Assembly (NCBI GenBank): GCA_945889195.1
Contig: CAMDBB010000006.1
Span: forward strand, 1-64,000
Length of the DNA: 64,000 nucleotides
From: Bifidobacterium breve
Lineage (GTDB): Bacteria > Actinomycetota > Actinomycetes > Nanopelagicales > Nanopelagicaceae
Direction of reading: 5' to 3'
A program made the translations under genes and the position numbers. Position 1 is the stretch's first letter. Every line of letters starts with the position of its first letter. This document shows positions 2,922-52,272 of the stretch, piece by piece. The notes under the pieces were generated by a model. That model made no database searches. It saw only the letters and a list, made by a program, of their open reading frames with translations, and was not told where the DNA came from.

Positions 2922-3842
2922 ATGAGTGGGACCAGAGGAAAAACTTCAAGCAGCAGCTGGTTCCCTGCCTATTTGATCATTGGATTTGTCTGGGGTTGTT
3001 CATTTATCTTTATCAAACTTGGCCTTGAATTCCTGACTCCATTTGGCGTTGCCTTTGTCCGCTGCGCCCTGGGAGCGCTCACGCTTCTACTCATTGCAAA
3101 GTGGCGTGGATATTCGCTACCTAAAGATCCGATGGTCCGCTTTCACTTATGGGTTGTCGCAGTGCTGCTCAATGTCATTCCTGGAATTTTCTATGCCTGG
3201 GCTGAAACAGTTGTCACCTCAGTACTTGCCGGAATTATCAATGCAGTAACGCCTTTGATGACCTTGCTTGCAATCATGGCTGTTAACCGCCAAGAAAAAC
3301 CAAAGGCATTTCAGATTATTGGTCTCTTTATTGGTTTTCTGGGCGTGCTCACAGTTCTAGGTGCATGGAATGGCCTTGGCGATAATCCGTTGTGGGCAAT
3401 TGTTGTTCTGATGAGCGCTGTAACTTGTTACGGAATCTCATTTCCTTACACGCGCCGCTTTGTGATGCCTTATGGACTCAAATCTGAATCAATTGTTTCG
3501 ATGCAATTGTTGTTGGCCGCTGTAACGCTCTTACCTTTCTTTCTCTTCAACGGCGTTGAAAGATATGAGTACATGCCAGGTCCACTCCTTGCCATGTTGG
3601 CGCTCGGAGTCTTTGGAAGCGGGTTGGCCTATCTCTGGAACTTTAAGGTGATGGAGCTAGCTGGTAGCGCAATCGCAAGTAGCGTCACATTCTTAACGCC
3701 CGTTGTAGCAATCATTGTGGGCATTATCTTCTTAGGTGAAAAAGTCACCTGGTATGAACCTGTTGGCGGACTTATTGTCTTGCTAGGTGCTGCGATTGCC
3801 CAGGAGCGAATCTCGCTACGACAGCGAGAATCCGACGGGTAG
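2922..3842 (+). CDS. EamA/DMT family transporter
   Basis: 306-aa integral membrane protein with about ten hydrophobic segments arranged as two EamA repeats, the architecture of drug/metabolite-transporter superfamily exporters. Each half carries the usual small-residue-rich helices (for example FVWGCSFIFIKLGL near the N-terminus and GEKVTWYEPVGGLIVLLGA near the C-terminus). Substrates of this family range from amino acids to purines, and none can be assigned here. It has its own leaderless promoter, and its last 27 bp overlap the end of the convergent cbiO. Confidence 0.87.
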   Translation: MSGTRGKTSSSSWFPAYLIIGFVWGCSFIFIKLGLEFLTPFGVAFVRCALGALTLLLIAKWRGYSLPKDPMVRFHLWVVAVLLNVIPGIFYAWAETVVTSVLAGIINAVTPLMTLLAIMAVNRQEKPKAFQIIGLFIGFLGVLTVLGAWNGLGDNPLWAIVVLMSAVTCYGISFPYTRRFVMPYGLKSESIVSMQLLLAAVTLLPFFLFNGVERYEYMPGPLLAMLALGVFGSGLAYLWNFKVMELAGSAIASSVTFLTPVVAIIVGIIFLGEKVTWYEPVGGLIVLLGAAIAQERISLRQRESDG

Positions 3843-4565
3843 TTCTAGGCGATGAGATGCTAATAGCTGCGCATTGCTCAACACATCTCGCGTAGGAGCA
3901 TCGGCAACGATAATTCCACCCGACAAGATCACAGAACGCTCGCAGAGTTCGAGCGCATATGGCAGATCGTGGGTCACCATCACAATCGTGACATCAAGAG
4001 ATCGCACAATGTCAGCGAGTTCGCGGCGACTAGCAGGATCTAAGTTTGAAGATGGCTCATCCATCACCAGAATCTCTGGCTTCATCGCCAATACCGTTGC
4101 AACAGCTACGCGACGGCGTTGTCCAAATGAAAGGTGATGCGGCGGGCGATCTTTAAATTCAAGCATGCCCACTTGGGTGAGCGCTTCATCAACTACGCGG
4201 TTGAGCTCTTCGCCACGAAGCCCCATGTTGTATGGGCCGAAGGCGATATCTTCGCCAACAGTTGGCATAAAGAGTTGATCATCAGGATCTTGAAAGACTA
4301 TTCCCACCTTTGCACGAATCTGCTTAAGAGTCTCTTTGTTTTTGCTATCAACTACGACGCCAGCGATACGAACTTCACCTTGCATCGTTGGATGGATGCC
4401 ATTCATATGCATAACGAGCGTTGTCTTGCCCGCTCCATTTGGTCCAAGTAACGCAACGCGTTCGCCTTTGTTGATACTCAGATTGACTCCAAAGAGCGCC
4501 TGATTTCCATCGGGATATGCAAAGGCGAGCTCTTTAATCTGCAAGCTAGGTACGTTATTCATCAT
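3816..4565 (-). CDS. cbiO: Energy-coupling factor transporter ATPase CbiO
   Basis: 249-aa ATP-binding subunit of a group I ECF cobalt/nickel importer. Walker A GPNGAGKTT is at residues 41-49, the ABC signature is LSFGQ, Walker B ends in LVMDEPSSNLD, and the switch histidine lies in VMVTHD. Two tandem ATGs (4565 and 4562) could start it; the first overlaps the TAA stop of cbiQ by 1 nt, so translation is probably coupled. It is the last gene of cbiM-cbiN-cbiQ-cbiO. An upstream in-frame ATG at 4637 would extend it deep into cbiQ and is rejected. Confidence 0.93.
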   Translation of the reverse strand: MMNNVPSLQIKELAFAYPDGNQALFGVNLSINKGERVALLGPNGAGKTTLVMHMNGIHPTMQGEVRIAGVVVDSKNKETLKQIRAKVGIVFQDPDDQLFMPTVGEDIAFGPYNMGLRGEELNRVVDEALTQVGMLEFKDRPPHHLSFGQRRRVAVATVLAMKPEILVMDEPSSNLDPASRRELADIVRSLDVTIVMVTHDLPYALELCERSVILSGGIIVADAPTRDVLSNAQLLASHRLELPVGFSLS

Positions 4566-5383
4566 TACCAACCAATCACGAGGAAGAAGAGAGATAGAGA
4601 AAGGGCAAGACCTGGAAGTGAGAGCGCTGTCGCCCACTGGCGTTGTGTTGCCTTGTTGTTATCAAGTGATGGCAGGTTTCCATCAAAGCCGCGTGAAAGC
4701 ATCGCTAGGTGAACTCGCTCACCGCGTTCATATGATCGGATAAAGAGAGCCGCTGCAGAGGTCGCTAAAACTTTCCAGTGTTTGATGCCGGTTGCAACAA
4801 AACCACGTGACTCGCGCGCAACCTTCATGCGCTCCATCTCATCGCTAATCACATTTACATAGCGCAACATAAAGGAGGCAATCTGAACCATGATGGCAGG
4901 TAACTTAAGACGTTCTAGGCCGCGCAAAATTTCACGAGCAGTTGTTGTAGTTGAAAGAATCACTGCTGCAAGAACGCCGAGCGTTCCTTTCACAACAATT
5001 GAAGTTCCAGCCAGAAGTCCTTCTCGATAGAGCTCGATACCTGCAATTTCAAACTTCTCGCCTGTACCAAAGAAAGGCATCAAGATGGCGAAGAAGATGA
5101 AGGGAATTTCAATAAGCGCGCGCTTAAAGAGGAGCAGTAGCGGAATTTTGCTTGCTAGCGCTGCCGCTACCAAGAGAAGAAAGAAGGCTACAAAGGCAGG
5201 CCAACGAGTAATCGGCGTTGATACTGAGACAGAGATAAAGGCCAGAACAGTCATGATCTTTACATGCGCAGGAAGTGAGTGCGTAACTGAATGGCGATGG
5301 AGATAGAGACGCTCACCTACATCATGGCCGTGGTGGTGGCCATGCGAATGTACGAGGTTTAAATCTTGTGTGTGAGGCTTTAT
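4565..5383 (-). CDS. cbiQ: ECF transporter transmembrane protein CbiQ (non-canonical start)
   Basis: T-component of the cobalt/nickel ECF transporter, with several membrane segments and the coupling-helix region LERLKLPAIMV. The first ATG is at 5254 and gives 229 aa. In-frame conserved sequence continues upstream of it: a histidine-rich stretch HSHGHHHGHDVGERLYLH and then HSLPAHVKI, which resembles the usual N-terminus of actinobacterial CbiQ. No ATG, GTG or TTG exists in this frame between the ATG at 5254 and the TGA at 5389. The best candidate start is ATA at 5383, which overlaps the cbiN TAA as ATAA, just as ATGA would; that gives 272 aa. A -1 slip on the AAAAA run at the cbiN end is the alternative. 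The function is secure; the start is inferred. Confidence 0.85.
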   Translation of the reverse strand: MKPHTQDLNLVHSHGHHHGHDVGERLYLHRHSVTHSLPAHVKIMTVLAFISVSVSTPITRWPAFVAFFLLLVAAALASKIPLLLLFKRALIEIPFIFFAILMPFFGTGEKFEIAGIELYREGLLAGTSIVVKGTLGVLAAVILSTTTTAREILRGLERLKLPAIMVQIASFMLRYVNVISDEMERMKVARESRGFVATGIKHWKVLATSAAALFIRSYERGERVHLAMLSRGFDGNLPSLDNNKATQRQWATALSLPGLALSLSLFFLVIGW

Positions 5384-5682
5384 TTTTCAGACCCAGGCTT
5401 GCGGCGGACCAGCATAAATAGTCCAGTTGAGATAACTCCTGTGGCAATTACACCGATGACGCCTGCAGCTCCTACGGAAAGGCGTTCGTTATCTACGCCT
5501 TTAACGCCGTAGTCAGCAAGAACACCATCGGCATTTGTATTCTCCTTGGCGGTTTCAATAAAGCCAATATCTTCAGCAACCTTCTCCAGCCCATCTGGGT
5601 GAGAAGAGGCATAGAAGGAGACAACTCCTGCGAGAAAGAGGGAAGCAATAAAGCCTGAGATAAGAAAAGTTTTCTGCTTCAT
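5380..5682 (-). CDS. cbiN: CbiN-like PDGLE-domain protein
   Basis: 100-aa membrane protein. An N-terminal hydrophobic segment (about residues 7-25) is followed by SSHPDGLEKVAEDIGF, the PDGLE signature found in auxiliary subunits of cobalt/nickel ECF transporters, and a second membrane helix near the C-terminus (GVIGVIATGVISTGLFML) precedes a basic tail. It is thought to sit beside CbiM in the membrane. Its ATG overlaps the cbiM stop by 4 bp, and its own stop is embedded in the start region of cbiQ. Confidence 0.85.
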   Translation of the reverse strand: MKQKTFLISGFIASLFLAGVVSFYASSHPDGLEKVAEDIGFIETAKENTNADGVLADYGVKGVDNERLSVGAAGVIGVIATGVISTGLFMLVRRKPGSEK

Positions 5683-6356
5683 GCTGCGCTCCTAATTTCT
5701 AAAGATGACTTCTGATTCTTGTAACCGTAAACAAGATCTGAGCGGCTAGCTAAGACGGCGCCAACGGCAAAGACTGTGATGAGCGCTTCACCAATTCCAA
5801 TAAGAATGTGCGTACCAACCATCGCAGCCAATACAGATGAGACTGAGAAAGTTGCATTAGCGCCGATGGCATATTGCAATACAAAGCTAGCGGCAGCCGC
5901 TGGTACTGAAATCACTGCAGCAACTCCAGCGGCCGCTGTAACAGAAGATTTAGTCTTTGGAAGAATTTTCTTAACCAGAAGAAAGATTGCGTAACTAACC
6001 CAGACGGCGACGATAGACATATTAAATACGCTGAGTCCAAGCGCACTGAGCCCACCATCTGCAAAGAGCAGCGCTTGCAAGAGCAAGACGATGGTGATCG
6101 CAAGCGTTGCCGCATATGGTCCGACTAAGACCGTGGCAAGCGCTGCGCCAAGTAAGTGGCCACTTGTTCCTGCAGCAACTGGGAAGTTGAGCATCTGCAC
6201 TGCAAAGATAAATGTTGCGGTAAGTCCCGCAAGAGGAGCGGTCTTGTCATCGAGTGATGACTTAGCTCCCTTGAGCGAGACGGCGACGGCGCCTGCGGCG
6301 ATTGCGGCAAAGGCTGCTGAGGTTGGGATATCGATGAACCCATCAGGAATATGCAT
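5679..6356 (-). CDS. cbiM: ECF transporter substrate-binding permease CbiM (cobalt/nickel)
   Basis: 225-aa S-component that captures the metal ion. It begins MHIPDGFID: in structures of this family the free N-terminal amine and His2 are metal ligands, so the start must be exactly here. The leaderless -10 box 6 nt upstream agrees. The rest is a series of alanine/glycine-rich membrane helices, including the conserved GTSGHLLGAALA segment with another probable metal-ligand histidine. Whether the ion is Co2+ or Ni2+ cannot be read from the protein; the upstream palindrome hints at nickel. It is the first gene of the four-gene operon. Confidence 0.93.
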   Translation of the reverse strand: MHIPDGFIDIPTSAAFAAIAAGAVAVSLKGAKSSLDDKTAPLAGLTATFIFAVQMLNFPVAAGTSGHLLGAALATVLVGPYAATLAITIVLLLQALLFADGGLSALGLSVFNMSIVAVWVSYAIFLLVKKILPKTKSSVTAAAGVAAVISVPAAAASFVLQYAIGANATFSVSSVLAAMVGTHILIGIGEALITVFAVGAVLASRSDLVYGYKNQKSSLEIRSAA

Positions 6357-6362
6357 GGGAAA

Positions 6363-6368
6363 AGGTTA
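6363..6368 (-). promoter_or_regulatory. Leaderless -10 box (TAACCT) of cbiMNQO
   Basis: Read on the minus strand, TAACCT is followed by TTTCCC and the cbiM ATG, which matches the TANNNT-plus-6 rule seen at many genes here. No ribosome binding site is present. Confidence 0.55.
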
Positions 6369-6385
6369 ATGCAAATCGTTTGCAT
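6369..6385. promoter_or_regulatory. Palindromic operator, Nur/Fur-family-like, upstream of cbiM
   Basis: ATGCAAA-TCG-TTTGCAT is a perfect 7+3+7 inverted repeat lying directly next to the cbiM -10 box, inside the promoter spacer, which is a classic repressor position. It fits TGCAA-N5-TTGCA, the form reported for the nickel regulator Nur of Streptomyces. I infer metal-responsive repression of the transporter; the regulator itself is not in this window. No cobalamin riboswitch is seen upstream. Confidence 0.6.
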
Positions 6386-6502
6386 CTGCATCTCGAGGGC
6401 AAAAGGCACGAATTCTTCGCCTATTCACACGGAAATATCGGCCTGGGATGGGGCGTTAGGTCTAGAGTGCAGGAATCTTCAAGTGGAGCGGGAGGTCTTT
6501 AG

Positions 6503-7426
6503 ATGAGCGATGACGAAGGCCAGGACGAACTAGTAACTGAAGAAATGCTCTGGGATCGAATCCCTGAAGTTCAAGGCGAAGAGCGCGCCAATACATATTA
6601 CGAGCTAAGCGCTCGCATCTTTGCGCGCGGTCAATATGACGAAGCGCTTGCGCTCGCCGAAACCGCTCGAGATATCTTCTCTGAGTTAGGTGAATCTGCT
6701 CCAAAAGAAGGTTTAGCGCAGGCTTACTCTGCAATTGGTTACAACCTCAATCAACTTAAGCGTATGGATGAAGCAGCAACTGCGATGAGCCAAGCTGTTG
6801 CAATTCTGCGTGAGAACAAATCACCTATTGCACTTGAACTCGCCTGCACATTAGGTGAATGGTGGTACTCATCAAAGAATTATGAAAAAGTCATCGAGAC
6901 TATGTATGAATGTTCCCAAGAACATTTAGTCGATGGCAACACAATCGGTGCAGCTAACGATATGCACCTTATTGGTTGTGCCCAACGCGAACTGAAGAAT
7001 TACAACGAAGCAATTATCTGCTTCACTGAAGCGCGCAAGATGTTTAAATCAGAGAAAGAAGTTATTCATGTCGCACGTTGCGATCAGAAGATTGCTTCTT
7101 GCTACATCGAAATCGGCGAAGGCGAGAAAGCTTTAGAAGCTGCGCGCAAAGCGATTGATGTCTTTGAAACTGCACATGATCACCGCCGCGAAACTTTTGC
7201 GCTCTTTGAATACGGTAAGGCTGAGATTCTCTTAAATAAGCTCGAAGATGGGCTAGCTTCGCTCGATAATGTACTGCAGATAGTTGCCGATGATGAACCT
7301 AAAGACTTTGAGTTCATCATGGATGTCGAGACTCGTATGTCCACGGTGATGCGTCAGCTAGGCCGCATTGATGAAGCTAATGAAGTAGATCGTCGCTTGG
7401 CATCTGTTCGCGAGGTAATGGATTAA
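6503..7426 (+). CDS. Tetratricopeptide-repeat protein of unknown function
   Basis: 307-aa soluble, acidic protein made almost wholly of TPR-like helix pairs; repeats such as YDEALALAETARDIF, EGEKALEAARKAIDVFE and LNKLEDGLASLDNVL carry the small-residue and alanine pattern of the family. No catalytic domain, signal peptide or membrane segment is seen, so it is probably a protein-interaction scaffold. Unlike many neighbours it has a normal leader: GGGAGG lies about 8 nt before the ATG, and a -10-like TAGAGT sits at 6463-6468. It is divergent from cbiM, and its last 4 bp overlap the convergent methyltransferase gene. Confidence 0.8.
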   Translation: MSDDEGQDELVTEEMLWDRIPEVQGEERANTYYELSARIFARGQYDEALALAETARDIFSELGESAPKEGLAQAYSAIGYNLNQLKRMDEAATAMSQAVAILRENKSPIALELACTLGEWWYSSKNYEKVIETMYECSQEHLVDGNTIGAANDMHLIGCAQRELKNYNEAIICFTEARKMFKSEKEVIHVARCDQKIASCYIEIGEGEKALEAARKAIDVFETAHDHRRETFALFEYGKAEILLNKLEDGLASLDNVLQIVADDEPKDFEFIMDVETRMSTVMRQLGRIDEANEVDRRLASVREVMD

Positions 7427-8073
7427 AGCTGGCGAGGTAGATGTTGCAGCGCCCAGTGATACATCGCGATAGCGCCAGCCGCAGAGGCGTTCATTGATCG
7501 GGTAGAGCCATATTGTTCAATGGCATAGAGCACTTCGCAGGCAGCAATACCTTCATCTGACATACCGGCGCCCTCTTGACCAAAGAGCAGCACGCATTCT
7601 TCTGGTAGTTGCGCGCCCTCTAAATGCTTTGAAGATGGCACGTTATCGATTCCGATTACTGGAACTTTATGTTCGGCACACCACGTAGAAAAATCTGCAA
7701 TCGTTGGATGATGAATCACAGTGAGGTATCTATCGGTAACCATTGCGCCACGCTTATTCCAGTCGCGCTTACCGATGATGTGAACCGCTGAGACATTAAA
7801 TGCATTTGCAGTACGAACAACAGAACCAATATTGAGATCATGCTGCCAATTCTCAATAGCAATCTGTAATTTATGTCTCTTTGAGTTTAAATCTTCAACT
7901 ATCGCTGCAACGCTCCAGTATCGATAGTGATCGAGGACATTTCGTCGATCTCCATTTTCAAGTAGCTCTGGATCAAATTCAGGACCAGTAGGCCAAGGTT
8001 GTGGGTGAGGTCCGACCCCAACTACCGGGAAAAATTCACCTGGCCCAATGACTGCAGGTGTATTGATTTCCAT
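7423..8073 (-). CDS. TrmH/SpoU family RNA methyltransferase
   Basis: 216-aa SPOUT-class, SAM-dependent RNA 2'-O-methyltransferase. The three knot motifs are visible: NIGSVVRTANAF, LLFGQEGAGMS and SMNASAAGAIAMYHW, which form the deep trefoil knot that binds SAM. The target could be tRNA or rRNA and is not determinable from the sequence. About 60 N-terminal residues (proline-rich, PQPWPTGPEF) precede the domain. Translation starts at the ATG 8073, supported by a leaderless -10 box TAGAGT 6 nt upstream. Confidence 0.88.
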   Translation of the reverse strand: MEINTPAVIGPGEFFPVVGVGPHPQPWPTGPEFDPELLENGDRRNVLDHYRYWSVAAIVEDLNSKRHKLQIAIENWQHDLNIGSVVRTANAFNVSAVHIIGKRDWNKRGAMVTDRYLTVIHHPTIADFSTWCAEHKVPVIGIDNVPSSKHLEGAQLPEECVLLFGQEGAGMSDEGIAACEVLYAIEQYGSTRSMNASAAGAIAMYHWALQHLPRQL

Positions 8074-8470: not shown

Positions 8471-9688
8471 TTGCATTCATTGAGAAGGGTAAGTGCTGCA
8501 CTCTGCGCGGCCCTCATTCTTCCTGCACTTTTGGTACCGAGCGCACAATCACTTGAGCCAAATTCAGTAGCAGGCATATTTGAACGCTACATTTCAAAGA
8601 AAGAGTTAGCTAACCCTTCAGCAATCGTTATTGACCAGACAACAGGTGAAGTTGTCTTTGCTAAGAACTCCAATTCGCTACGCAAACCTGCATCTGTTCA
8701 AAAGATTCTTGCGGCAGTCTCCGCGCTTACCTATTTTGCGCCAACTGAGACATTTACAACCACCGTCTCATTAGGTCAGCAGACTCGCACCTTGGTCATT
8801 GAAGGCTCGCGAGATCCATGGATGAGCTTTAACCATAAAGAAGCGGTGCGCTTAGATAGGACTTCTCTGCCACGCATTGAGTACAACTCGCTCTCATCTT
8901 TGATTGAAGCGAATGAGGAACCTGTAACCAAGGCGACCATTTACTACACAAACCTCTACTCGCAAGAAGTCGCTCACATCAAAGCCTTCTATAAGAAGCA
9001 AGGAATTACCGCATCCTTAAAGCGGGTAAATGCTCGGCAAGCGCAAGAACTTAAAGGTGAAGAGATTCTTCAATCTAGTTCTCCAGAGTTACAGCGAATG
9101 CTGGCATTTTTCCTCACCTGGAGTGACAACGTTCTGACAGAGCGAATAGCACGCCTGGCAGCGCTCAAGGCTGGTGAACCATTTGATGAGGATGGCGTTG
9201 CCATTACCTTTGCGGGAATCCTTGAAACGTATGGAATTAACTCTTCATCGCTATTAGTCAAAGATGCCAGTGGTTTATCGCATAACAATCGCATCACAGC
9301 AGCTCAAGTTGGTTCGTTATTGGTGAAGATACGCAATGAACCTCAATTCGCACCAGTAGTAAATGGGTTACCTATTGGTGGAATTACCGGAACGCTTAAA
9401 GATCGCTTTACAAAGACAGCTCCAGAAGCAATTGGCTTAGTGAAGGCAAAGACAGGAACGCTTAATGGAACCACCAACCTGGCTGGTTACATTGAATCAG
9501 GCGATCGCGAATACGTATTTGTGATTATCTCCGATAAGCATCCACGTACTTATTCAGCTGCTAAACGAGCGCGTGCAACTGTCGATCGAATTCTTGGAAA
9601 GATTGCAGCACCGTTACTGCCACAGCCAGCGCCACAGATATCACCGGAGCCGGTAGCTACACCGGCAGAGATGGTGGCTAACTCTTAG
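8471..9688 (+). CDS. dacB: D-alanyl-D-alanine carboxypeptidase/endopeptidase (PBP4, S13 family)
   Basis: 405-aa exported penicillin-binding protein that trims or cleaves peptidoglycan cross-links. A signal peptide (ALCAALILPALLVPSAQS) is followed by the three active-site motifs: SxxK as SVQK at 75-78, SxN as SDN near 218, and KTG as KTGTLNG near 327. A short proline/alanine-rich tail (QPAPQISPEPVATPAE) ends the protein. No ATG is available at the signal peptide; TTG at 8471 or TTG at 8480 must start it, with no clear ribosome binding site, so coupling to the upstream gene is likely. Its TAG stop shares bases with the stop of the convergent gene. Confidence 0.9.
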   Translation: MHSLRRVSAALCAALILPALLVPSAQSLEPNSVAGIFERYISKKELANPSAIVIDQTTGEVVFAKNSNSLRKPASVQKILAAVSALTYFAPTETFTTTVSLGQQTRTLVIEGSRDPWMSFNHKEAVRLDRTSLPRIEYNSLSSLIEANEEPVTKATIYYTNLYSQEVAHIKAFYKKQGITASLKRVNARQAQELKGEEILQSSSPELQRMLAFFLTWSDNVLTERIARLAALKAGEPFDEDGVAITFAGILETYGINSSSLLVKDASGLSHNNRITAAQVGSLLVKIRNEPQFAPVVNGLPIGGITGTLKDRFTKTAPEAIGLVKAKTGTLNGTTNLAGYIESGDREYVFVIISDKHPRTYSAAKRARATVDRILGKIAAPLLPQPAPQISPEPVATPAEMVANS

Positions 9689-10119
9689 TCGTCATCATCG
9701 TCGTCATCGTCGTCATCGTCGTCATCATCGTGGCCACGACCACCGCGATGGTCGCCATCTTCATCATCATCGTCGTCATCGTCACCGCTAGAAATTCCTA
9801 CCACCGGTGCAATTGTTGGAACTCCAACTGAGTTCACAGCTGCCGCAGTAATGGAGGCAGTTTTTGACTGCACCGCGATAACGCTCTGAACTGATGGGCT
9901 TGAATCTGTAGTTGTATTGGCAGGCACAGTTTCGCCCACAGAGCTCGATGCGATATTTGAATCAGCGCTCTGATCTTGAGCGAATAAAGATCCACCAAAG
10001 AGAAGAGCACCCGCAACTAATAGCGCGCCGATAGGAAGTGTTTTATTCACTTTTCTTAACCCAGTGGCAGGTGTATCGCCCTCAGTCATTTCAAACCAAT
10101 CTGGCTTCTTTGGTGTCAT
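9685..10119 (-). CDS. Single-pass membrane protein with poly-aspartate C-terminus
   Basis: 144-aa protein of unknown function. A short cytosolic N-terminus with basic residues (GLRKVNK) precedes one membrane helix (LPIGALLVAGALLFGGSLFA), then a Ser/Thr/Val-rich spacer of about 60 residues. The tail is extremely acidic: a run of 7 Asp then Glu-Asp, a short GDHRGGRGH stretch, and a final run of 14 Asp that ends the protein. The charge pattern places the acidic tail outside the cell, where it could bind divalent cations. The coding DNA there is a near-tandem trinucleotide array (9688-9783). The promoter region is shared with ctaB, and AGGGA about 7 nt upstream may be the ribosome binding site. 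Confidence 0.72.
   Translation of the reverse strand: MTPKKPDWFEMTEGDTPATGLRKVNKTLPIGALLVAGALLFGGSLFAQDQSADSNIASSSVGETVPANTTTDSSPSVQSVIAVQSKTASITAAAVNSVGVPTIAPVVGISSGDDDDDDDEDGDHRGGRGHDDDDDDDDDDDDDD
9688..9783. repeat. GTC/ATC trinucleotide tract encoding poly-Asp
   Basis: Two blocks (9688-9730 and 9760-9783) of alternating gtc and atc triplets, which read as GAC and GAT aspartate codons on the minus strand, are separated by a short GC-rich linker. Mixed use of both Asp codons breaks perfect repetition. Such tracts can change length by slippage in whole-codon steps. Confidence 0.85.
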
Positions 10120-50336: not shown

Positions 50337-51182
50337 CTAGAAGGAGAGCGCAATGGCGAATGTGAGAGAGAAGTGCAGTTGCAATTGACCCGTTCTCCCA
50401 AGCAAAGGAATCAAACTTTCACCAGTTGCGCCAGCACGAACTTCGCGAGCAATCGCAAGGGCATGTGGGGCAGAGGCAAGTGTGAGAAAAGCTAGCGGAT
50501 TTCCTGTGAGTGGGGCGAAGATGTAAGGCAAGGCTAAGAGTGCGATAAAGAAGCGGCGAGCGTTTTCATCTCCCAATCGCACCGCCAAAGTCTTCTTACC
50601 AACCTGCGCATCTTGAGCTCGATCTCTAATGTTATTGATCGCTAAGAGCGCACAGGAAAGGGAACCCATTGATACTGATGCCGCAAAAGCTGCAGCTGAG
50701 AATTCAAGAGTTTGCACGTAGTAAGTACCTACCGTTGCAACAACTCCAAAGAAGGTAAAGACAGAGAGTTCACCAAAGCCTAAATATCCGTAAGGGGCAT
50801 GGCCTCCGGTATATCCCCAAGCAGCTAGAACTGAAATCACTCCGACTATCAAGATCCACCAGGAAGAAGTCGCTGCCAGCGCTAGCCCTGCTACACAGGC
50901 AACAGCAAATGAGATAAACGCTGCACGCTTTACCGCTTTAGCCGAAGCTAAACCAGATGCAGTGAGGCGAATTGGTCCAACGCGAACATCATCTGTTCCG
51001 CGGATTCCATCAGAGTAATCATTGGAGTAATTCACTGCGATTTGCAGAGCAAGAGCGACAATCAACGCAAGGAAGGCTTGCAACGGGCGCCATGCGCTAC
51101 CTGCCAGAACTGTTGCAACAAGAACAGGTCCAATCGCAGCTGGAAGTGTGCGCGGGCGGGCACCTTGAATCCAAATATTAAT
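50337..51182 (-). CDS. menA: 1,4-dihydroxy-2-naphthoate polyprenyltransferase MenA (probable AUU start)
   Basis: UbiA-family membrane prenyltransferase that attaches the isoprenoid tail in menaquinone synthesis. The active-site Asp-rich motif is NYSNDYSDGIRGTDD and the second site NNIRDRAQDAQVGKKTLAV. The first ordinary start in frame is TTG 51083 (248 aa), but conserved N-terminal sequence WIQGARPRTLPAAIGPVLV lies upstream of it, and the frame there holds no ATG, GTG or TTG before the stop at 51197. ATT at 51182 is preceded by GGAGG with 6-nt spacing and overlaps the menE TAA; it gives 281 aa, normal for MenA. The function is firm; the AUU start is inferred. Confidence 0.9.
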   Translation of the reverse strand: MNIWIQGARPRTLPAAIGPVLVATVLAGSAWRPLQAFLALIVALALQIAVNYSNDYSDGIRGTDDVRVGPIRLTASGLASAKAVKRAAFISFAVACVAGLALAATSSWWILIVGVISVLAAWGYTGGHAPYGYLGFGELSVFTFFGVVATVGTYYVQTLEFSAAAFAASVSMGSLSCALLAINNIRDRAQDAQVGKKTLAVRLGDENARRFFIALLALPYIFAPLTGNPLAFLTLASAPHALAIAREVRAGATGESLIPLLGRTGQLQLHFSLTFAIALSF

Positions 51183-52272
51183 TTGGCGCCTCCATTAATA
51201 GTTCTTGTAACTTCTTTCGATCTACCTTACCGATACCGATAAGAGGTAGTTCAGGCAGATAAAGGTATCCCTTTGGTTTGGAAGGTGCACCAAATTTCTC
51301 AACCAGATAATCGTTTAGCTCGTTCTCTGAAGGGAAGCCATCACCGGCAACTGCCACATGCAGCGCATCGCCCCATTGTGGATCCTTAATCGCAAAAGCT
51401 GCAAAAGATTTGTGTGGGAAGTGGGCATGGAGTGAACCTTCAATTGCTGACAGAGAAATGTTTTCGCCGCCAGAGATAATCACATCATCAACCCGACCTT
51501 CAACAATCAACTTTTCATTCTCAATACGACCGCTATCGCTTGTAATCAACCAACCGCCTTGGAAACTTGTATCCCAGAGCGTCTGCGCACCTAAATAAGT
51601 TGTTGCTAGTACCGCACCTTTCAGAGCAATCTTCTTTTCAGGGGTAATCGAAACTTCTACACCATCAAGTGGCGTTCCGTTGTACACACAGCCGCCAGCA
51701 GTTTCAGAGGAGCCGTATGACGTGATGACATTTATCTGCGCCGCCGTTGCCTGCATTTGTACTTCAGGTGCAAGAGCTGCCCCACCTACAAGTACAGCTT
51801 TGGCAGCCTGTAAATGGCTGAGCAATCGATCATCGCCATTGAGCGCACGAAATAGTTGCGTAGGAACAATTGCAGTGAAATCTGCGTGTGGATATTCACC
51901 GTCGTAATTGCGAAGATCAATTGGTTCAGTGCCTAGCTCAAGAGAACGAATAAGAACATTGATGCCTGCAATATGAGTCAGCGGCAGTAAGAGCGACCAG
52001 GTATTTCCAAACTCTGCTCCAAGAAATTTATGTGAGGCCTTCGCTGATGTAAGTAACGCTGCGCTAGATAGCCCAACTTCTTTCGCTACTCCCGAGCTAC
52101 CTGTGGTCTTGACCACGATGCTGATTCTTGGAGGGACGTTGGTAAATGATGTGGAGGCGAAGGCCAGGGCTGGTCCATCAGAGACCAAGGCCTTAGCGAT
52201 ACGAGCCATCAATTCGCTGAGCGTCCATTCGGGACTGACTTCGCGAAGTTCTCGTTGTGCGTTCTGCTCCAT
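51178..52272 (-). CDS. menE: o-Succinylbenzoate-CoA ligase
   Basis: 364-aa adenylate-forming enzyme that activates o-succinylbenzoate. The P-loop appears as KTTGSSGVAKEVGLS (near residue 55), with the family's TSYGSSETAGGCVYNG, GRVDDVIISGGENIS hinge, and a C-terminal lysine in IGIGKVDRKKLQ. The short N-terminal domain is usual for actinobacterial MenE. Start at ATG 52272, with TAGCCT 9 nt upstream. It is upstream of menA and divergent from menB. Confidence 0.93.
   Translation of the reverse strand: MEQNAQRELREVSPEWTLSELMARIAKALVSDGPALAFASTSFTNVPPRISIVVKTTGSSGVAKEVGLSSAALLTSAKASHKFLGAEFGNTWSLLLPLTHIAGINVLIRSLELGTEPIDLRNYDGEYPHADFTAIVPTQLFRALNGDDRLLSHLQAAKAVLVGGAALAPEVQMQATAAQINVITSYGSSETAGGCVYNGTPLDGVEVSITPEKKIALKGAVLATTYLGAQTLWDTSFQGGWLITSDSGRIENEKLIVEGRVDDVIISGGENISLSAIEGSLHAHFPHKSFAAFAIKDPQWGDALHVAVAGDGFPSENELNDYLVEKFGAPSKPKGYLYLPELPLIGIGKVDRKKLQELLMEAPN

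Follow-up and report, generated by a model that had tools for sequence, protein, structure and literature searches.

How is a gene translated when its conserved N-terminal coding sequence holds no ATG, GTG or TTG on which a ribosome could begin? The question is raised by cbiQ in a 64,000-nucleotide stretch of DNA, referred to throughout as the window, whose source assembly amounts to 1.43 Mb in 19 contigs. The window genome and its congeners are Candidatus Planktophila of the family Nanopelagicaceae, whose very common members include some of the most abundant bacteria of fresh water, and few bacterial genes are known to use a non-AUG start. An original prediction, made from the letters of the window, had proposed that cbiQ begins at an ATA overlapping the stop of cbiN or else is reached by a ribosomal slip at that stop, and that relaxed initiation may be a feature of this genome.

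The cbiQ locus and its missing canonical start

The features of the locus are as follows.
3816..4565, minus strand: cbiO-like ATPase gene, whose ordinary start ATG 4565-4563 overlaps the cbiQ stop as TAATG
4565..5383, minus strand: cbiQ, 272 aa from ATA, T component of a cobalt ECF transporter, with profile matches
5252..5254, minus strand: first canonical codon (ATG) of the cbiQ frame, not likely the start
5380..5382, minus strand: stop codon TAA of cbiN
5381..5383, minus strand: proposed start codon ATA of cbiQ, with a 4-nt overlap with the cbiN stop (ATAA); relatives have ATA, GTA or ATG at the same place
5387..5389, minus strand: in-frame TGA of the cbiQ frame, which closes the frame upstream of ATA
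5380..5682, minus strand: cbiN, 100 aa, PDGLE/CbiN
5679..6356, minus strand: cbiM, joined to cbiN by an ordinary ATGA overlap of its stop with the cbiN start

The cbiQ product lies above the curated cut-offs of both family profiles, scoring 149.5 bits with TIGR02454 (cut-off 111.8) and, with its N-terminal extension, 125.1 bits with PF02361 (cut-off 25), against 116.7 bits for the form that begins at ATG 5254. It also matches the solved CbiQ 5x41_Q (3e-14) over residues 12-255, an alignment that carries little meaning in its first part, where a His-rich, tag-like stretch is paired. CbiM and CbiN score above their Pfam and below their NCBIfam cut-offs. With the ATPase gene, which we take to be cbiO from its ABC ATPase sequence, cbiM, cbiN, cbiQ and cbiO stand adjacent, as expected of a CbiMNQO transporter. 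A search for RNA elements in positions 3500-7500 of the window gave zero Rfam matches.

On the minus strand, the 3' end of cbiN is GGG TCT GAA AAA TAA, and the cbiQ frame across the junction runs GTC TGA AAA ATA AAG CCT CAC ... GTA AAG ATC ATG. This bears out what had been claimed of the junction, namely the run of five A, the overlap of ATA with the cbiN stop as ATAA, and the 43 cbiQ-frame codons upstream of ATG 5254 (ATA counted), which include zero ATG, GTG or TTG. Since the cbiQ-frame TGA at 5389-5387 lies two codons ahead of ATA, a start farther upstream is impossible.

Coding evidence for the N-terminus

The simplest reading of such a frame would be that translation begins at ATG 5254, its first canonical start, which yields a 229-aa open frame and would leave the conserved N-terminus untranslated. 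However, pN/pS over the 42 codons after ATA is 0.08-0.32 against 14 congeners, similar to the 0.08-0.22 of the cbiQ body (the next 180 codons), and the N-terminal segment HHHGHDVGERLYLHRHS is retained throughout the Nanopelagicaceae with small changes. Moreover, ATG 5254 is not conserved, the first canonical codon of relatives lying at varying places, and the Pfam score falls once the segment is removed. A start at ATG 5254 is therefore very improbable, and an internal ATG start for cbiQ was rejected on conservation. As judged from the sequence, the cbiQ frame upstream of ATG 5254 is true coding sequence; the low pN/pS and the rise of the PF02361 score with the extension agree with the original prediction of a real CbiQ N-terminus there.

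Absence of a canonical start across the Nanopelagicaceae

The distribution of cbiQ is patchy among congeners (present in 46 of 135), and 91 of 296 family genomes have it; six of these 91 matches, being partial or weak, were left unread (G207, G211, G226, G272, G316 and G320). With duplicates collapsed beforehand there were 90 distinct rows, from which L055, a fragment without the N-terminus, and the Streptomycetaceae outgroups L105 and L107-L110 were dropped to leave 84. Canonical starts were sought from the in-frame stop (or from 45 nt before the cbiN stop) to the conserved HGHD-type motif. Sixty of the 84 distinct Nanopelagicaceae sequences have no canonical start at all, among them those of P. 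lacus (NZ_CP016769) and P. versatilis (NZ_CP016774), whose genomes are complete. In 11 the only candidates are TTG or GTG codons that lie within cbiN, 29 nt or more upstream, and the remaining 13 offer a possible canonical start. Because of common descent, these counts are not independent. Of the 58 sequences that lack a canonical codon and whose cbiN stop was located, 44 have a cbiQ-frame stop at most 45 nt upstream.

A sequencing error, a mis-assembly or a decayed gene might be suspected, the window genome being split into 19 contigs. Yet the missing start recurs across the family, complete genomes included, and dozens of independent genomes share it (NZ_CP016769 and NZ_CP016774 among them), which argues that it is no error; decay is contradicted by a cbiQ frame that is intact and under purifying selection. 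The chance that any of these accounts for the missing start is vanishingly small.

Frame relations at the cbiN-cbiQ junction

Three frame relations between cbiN and cbiQ are found among the 82 junctions with a located cbiN stop. In 45 the relation is -1, with a 4-nt overlap (ATA 23, GTA 8, CTG 5, TTA 4, CTA 3, ATG 2); in 32 it is the other shift, with a 5-nt overlap (ATT 15, AAT 7, GTT 6, others 4); and in five both genes share the same frame.

These relations bear on the second proposal, that a ribosomal frameshift at the cbiN stop yields a CbiN-CbiQ fusion and makes a start codon for cbiQ unnecessary. The window's GAA AAA TAA could indeed permit tRNA-Lys to slip by -1 in the P site at the stop, and the topology of such a fusion would suit it, both termini lying in the cytoplasm. 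But because the frame relation varies by species, one shared -1 slippage is excluded. Many species have a non-slippery last codon in cbiN (CCA, TCG or AAT, for example), in L005 and L036 a stop in the cbiQ frame immediately precedes ATA, and relatives with ATGA or TAA-TTG junctions require no shift. Folding of the junction RNA, in the window sequence only, is no better than that of shuffles (z 0.05). Neither a conserved slippery site or frame relation nor, in the window fold, a stimulatory structure of programmed -1 frameshifting is thus found; slippage on the AAAAA run is not supported as an account of cbiQ, and frameshifting at this stop is improbable.

Homology of the ATA position with ATG

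The position of the window's ATA is homologous to that of an ATG in relatives. The junction is ATGA in L009 and L039 and ATAG in L016, their sister in the CbiQ tree, while ATAA (L010, L041, L042, L043, L045) and GTAA (L011, L079, L080) occur at the same distance from the motif as in L009 and L039. With ATGA and ATAA aligned, a single base change from one to the other, in either direction, switches stop and start together. An ATG here in a related genome had been named in advance as grounds for abandoning the idea; such an ATG does exist in L009 and L039, but it marks the start position and does not refute the idea, because the sister L016 has ATAG. Among 13 sequences of outgroup actinomycetes, at least 8 show a methionine at the corresponding position. 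When the 11 loci with only a far TTG or GTG are scored as non-canonical, the canonical/non-canonical label changes at minimum 9 times on the CbiQ tree, at least 7 of these on well-supported branches, compared with about 15 for shuffled labels.

In a 4-nt overlap bases 2 and 3 are dictated by the stop, and base 1 alone is informative; in the whole family it is A in 25, G in 8, C in 8 and T in 4 (n=45). In genus g1 (44 sequences) the 4-nt overlaps are ATA 20, GTA 3, ATG 2 and TTA 1, with A or G at base 1 in 25 of 26, and the 5-nt overlaps, where bases 1 and 2 are free, are ATT 11, GTT 5 and ACT 1, with RT in 16 of 17; one further sequence is in frame 0. Five cbiQ loci of another genus, g43 (L269-L273), carry CTG on the cbiN stop as CTGA, and L040 has ACT at the overlap and an ATG 6 nt upstream. 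A g44-type clade (L092, L096, L097, L223, L226, L227) has AAT on the stop and an invariant ATC directly before it, an ATC also present in L088 and L098.

It could be argued that the overlap is incidental and that the start is given by something else in the 5' region, be it an ATT or ATC located two codons later or an unknown signal. TTA or CTA, which would be very poor starts, stand at the overlap in seven loci, and all seven have ATT or ATC two codons downstream, so that the start may have moved there; the ATC of g44-type loci, just before the stop-overlap codon, points the same way. Against this, ATA in the window species is not followed by another such codon until GTA, ten codons later, the ATG of L009 and L039 falls exactly in the ATA column of their relatives, and 16 of 17 5-nt overlaps in g1 are RTT. 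A start elsewhere in the 5' region is hence unlikely. For a start at the overlap codon itself, GTA, GTT, CTG and above all TTA/CTA fit a simple picture worse.

The proposed non-AUG start of menA and the ATC start of infC

The vitamin K2 gene menA had been offered as a second case, and it proves a cleaner one than cbiQ, with an apparent AUU start behind a strong Shine-Dalgarno.
50337..51182, minus strand: menA, 281 aa from ATT; its first canonical codon is an internal TTG at 51083
51180..51182, minus strand: proposed start codon ATT of menA, with a 5-nt overlap with the upstream stop (ATTAA)
51189..51193, minus strand: menA Shine-Dalgarno GGAGG, 6 nt before ATT, anti-SD duplex -9.3 kcal/mol

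Fifty congener loci were read, drawn from 126 matching genomes. In 22 of them menA begins ATT AAN ATY TGG, with GGAGG 6 nt ahead and the ATTAA overlap; the other 28 have ATG, GTG or TTG at the aligned codon or at most 5 codons away, and L205 reads ATG AAC ATT TGG. As in cbiQ, a near-cognate codon thus stands at a place homologous to ATG.

The start of infC is ATC behind a Shine-Dalgarno (GGAG) in all eight actinomycete genomes read (loci L158-L165), and in L161 and L162 there is zero canonical codon in frame. The lineage therefore initiates at AUH elsewhere, and the non-AUG start of infC is not peculiar to the window genome. Gene finders probably misplace the infC start.

Shine-Dalgarno strength, translation machinery and generality

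The anti-SD duplex of cbiQ is weak (-3.1 kcal/mol) next to the -9.3 of menA, and for reference, 38 ATG genes from the window average -3.8 and 500 random stretches -1.8. The anti-SD GGATCACCTCCTTTCT was found in four of five genomes and not in G000, a 19-contig assembly. An altered initiator tRNA was ruled out by its anticodon arm GGGCTCATAACCC, which is present in the usual form. With the gene for IF3 also present in 8 of 8 genomes, the machinery looks ordinary, and the non-AUG starts belong to particular genes.

Surveys for further genes with missing starts point to the same conclusion. Among 655 ORF-genome units (168-170 kb of four complete congeners and the window, which supplied 61), only cbiQ and menA stood out, and a second method, applied to 168 kb of the congener G039 with its roughly 154 ORF families, gave the same two as the only clear cases; there, 56 flagged groups were judged by eye, several being paralogue mismatches that allowed no decision. 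The survey is blind to a start masked by an upstream in-frame TTG, as with menA in G039. These stricter surveys supersede a looser one that flagged 102 of 179 ORFs, mostly for overlap with neighbouring genes. Since only cbiQ and menA stood out, the phenomenon is gene-specific, and genome-wide relaxed initiation was rejected on these surveys of the window and its congeners. The broad suggestion that relaxed initiation marks this genome also sits badly with the non-AUG infC of all eight actinomycetes.

A proposed mechanism of initiation

It is quite likely, on the comparative evidence, that cbiQ is translated from AUA 5383-5381 by the ordinary initiator tRNA, in a termination-coupled and inefficient manner that is probably limited by IF3, and that menA is translated likewise from AUU. 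Both proposed starts lie within a few nucleotides of an upstream stop, which they overlap by 4 nt (cbiQ) and 5 nt (menA). Ribosomes ending at the cbiN UAA would sit 1 nt from AUA and could re-initiate there, and given the weak Shine-Dalgarno, coupling probably supplies most initiation. The initiator tRNA would read AUA at low efficiency, and IF3, whose own gene is non-AUG here, would probably hold the yield down; with an inefficient codon so restrained, CbiQ would be made at a low, cbiN-dependent rate. The AUU of menA would be used in the same mode, but with a strong Shine-Dalgarno. One might speculate that low, cbiN-dependent CbiQ keeps the T component from exceeding its partners. Among the observations that weigh against the AUA start are the weakness of the Shine-Dalgarno before cbiQ (-3.1 kcal/mol) and the TTG or GTG inside cbiN that could serve in 11 loci.

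More tentatively, the family may have retained a weak start in a single operon gene over a very long period, with the codon turning over (ATA, GTA, ATT, GTT, ATC, CTG, perhaps TTA/CTA) and a canonical one rarely returning, and with the upstream stop, more than codon-anticodon pairing, placing the ribosome. If so, -5 nt overlaps (NTTAA) would be real and regularly used coupled starts.

Relation to known systems

IF3 is reported to tolerate only Watson-Crick pairs at bases 1 and 2 of the start codon (PMC10158994), a demand that fits AUA and AUU and does not fit GUA, GUU or CUG. The closest experimental precedent is Streptomyces sigR (PMC5472188), which is IF3-repressed and starts at GTC in 32 and GTT in 2 of 34 species, and giving it a canonical start raises SigR above its partner. 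Like the proposed start of cbiQ, that of sigR is a conserved non-AUG codon, which there keeps one partner of a complex low; unlike cbiQ, whose Shine-Dalgarno is weak, sigR has an extensive RBS (AGGAGGTG) and experimental proof (PMC5472188). The proposed cbiQ start differs further in overlapping the previous stop and in varying over ATA, GTA, ATT, GTT and CTG.

The infC start is given as AUU in E. coli and ATC in Streptomyces (PMC5472188). The non-AUG start of infC, which has a Shine-Dalgarno, resembles those of menA and cbiQ, but infC is autoregulated by IF3, whereas neither cbiQ nor menA has any link to the translation machinery. In PMC13009471, the starts of S. aureus ccpN (AUA) and cvfC1 (AUU) are conserved among relatives, and AUA/AUU reporters (including citZ) reach about 10% of AUG, ccpN up to 30% in rich medium; these cases rely on extended SD motifs, which menA resembles and cbiQ does not. 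E. coli pcnB, to which PMC13009471 refers, is a single-gene case, an enzyme gene limited by its AUU start. The conserved coding N-terminus without ATG, GTG or TTG, found in the 60 of 84 cbiQ sequences, is a trait that cbiQ shares with genes of the infC, pcnB and sigR type.

As for the overlaps, PMC10666635 and PMC3887535 describe -4 nt overlaps as typical of coupled gene pairs; -5 nt overlaps are seemingly ruled out in the former and would need an extremely rare ATT start in the latter. Unlike the surveyed pairs, cbiQ (ATTAA, ATTAG, GTTAA) and menA (ATTAA) appear to be natural cases of -5 overlap that have been conserved. In literature searches on cbiQ, Nanopelagicales, Planktophila and acI start codons, no published account was found of a family-wide non-AUG cbiQ start or of conserved 5-nt overlaps; non-AUG starts being already known, these two would be the new part. 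What cbiQ offers is a family-kept non-AUG start with codon turnover and internal controls (ATGA in sister species), and, with it, natural 5-nt stop-start overlaps, a type regarded in surveys of overlapping genes as very rare or excluded. In practical terms, the CbiQ and MenA proteins called by gene finders are probably too short in these bacteria.

Additional observations

Seven public MAG contigs (L056, L066, L074, L078, L084, L085, L087) carry a Nanopelagicaceae cbiQ and are titled Bifidobacterium breve or, in other cases, Streptomycetaceae, apparently mislabelled. Elsewhere in the window, positions 9685-10119 of the minus strand encode a small protein with a long C-terminal run of Asp and GDHRGGRGH inside.
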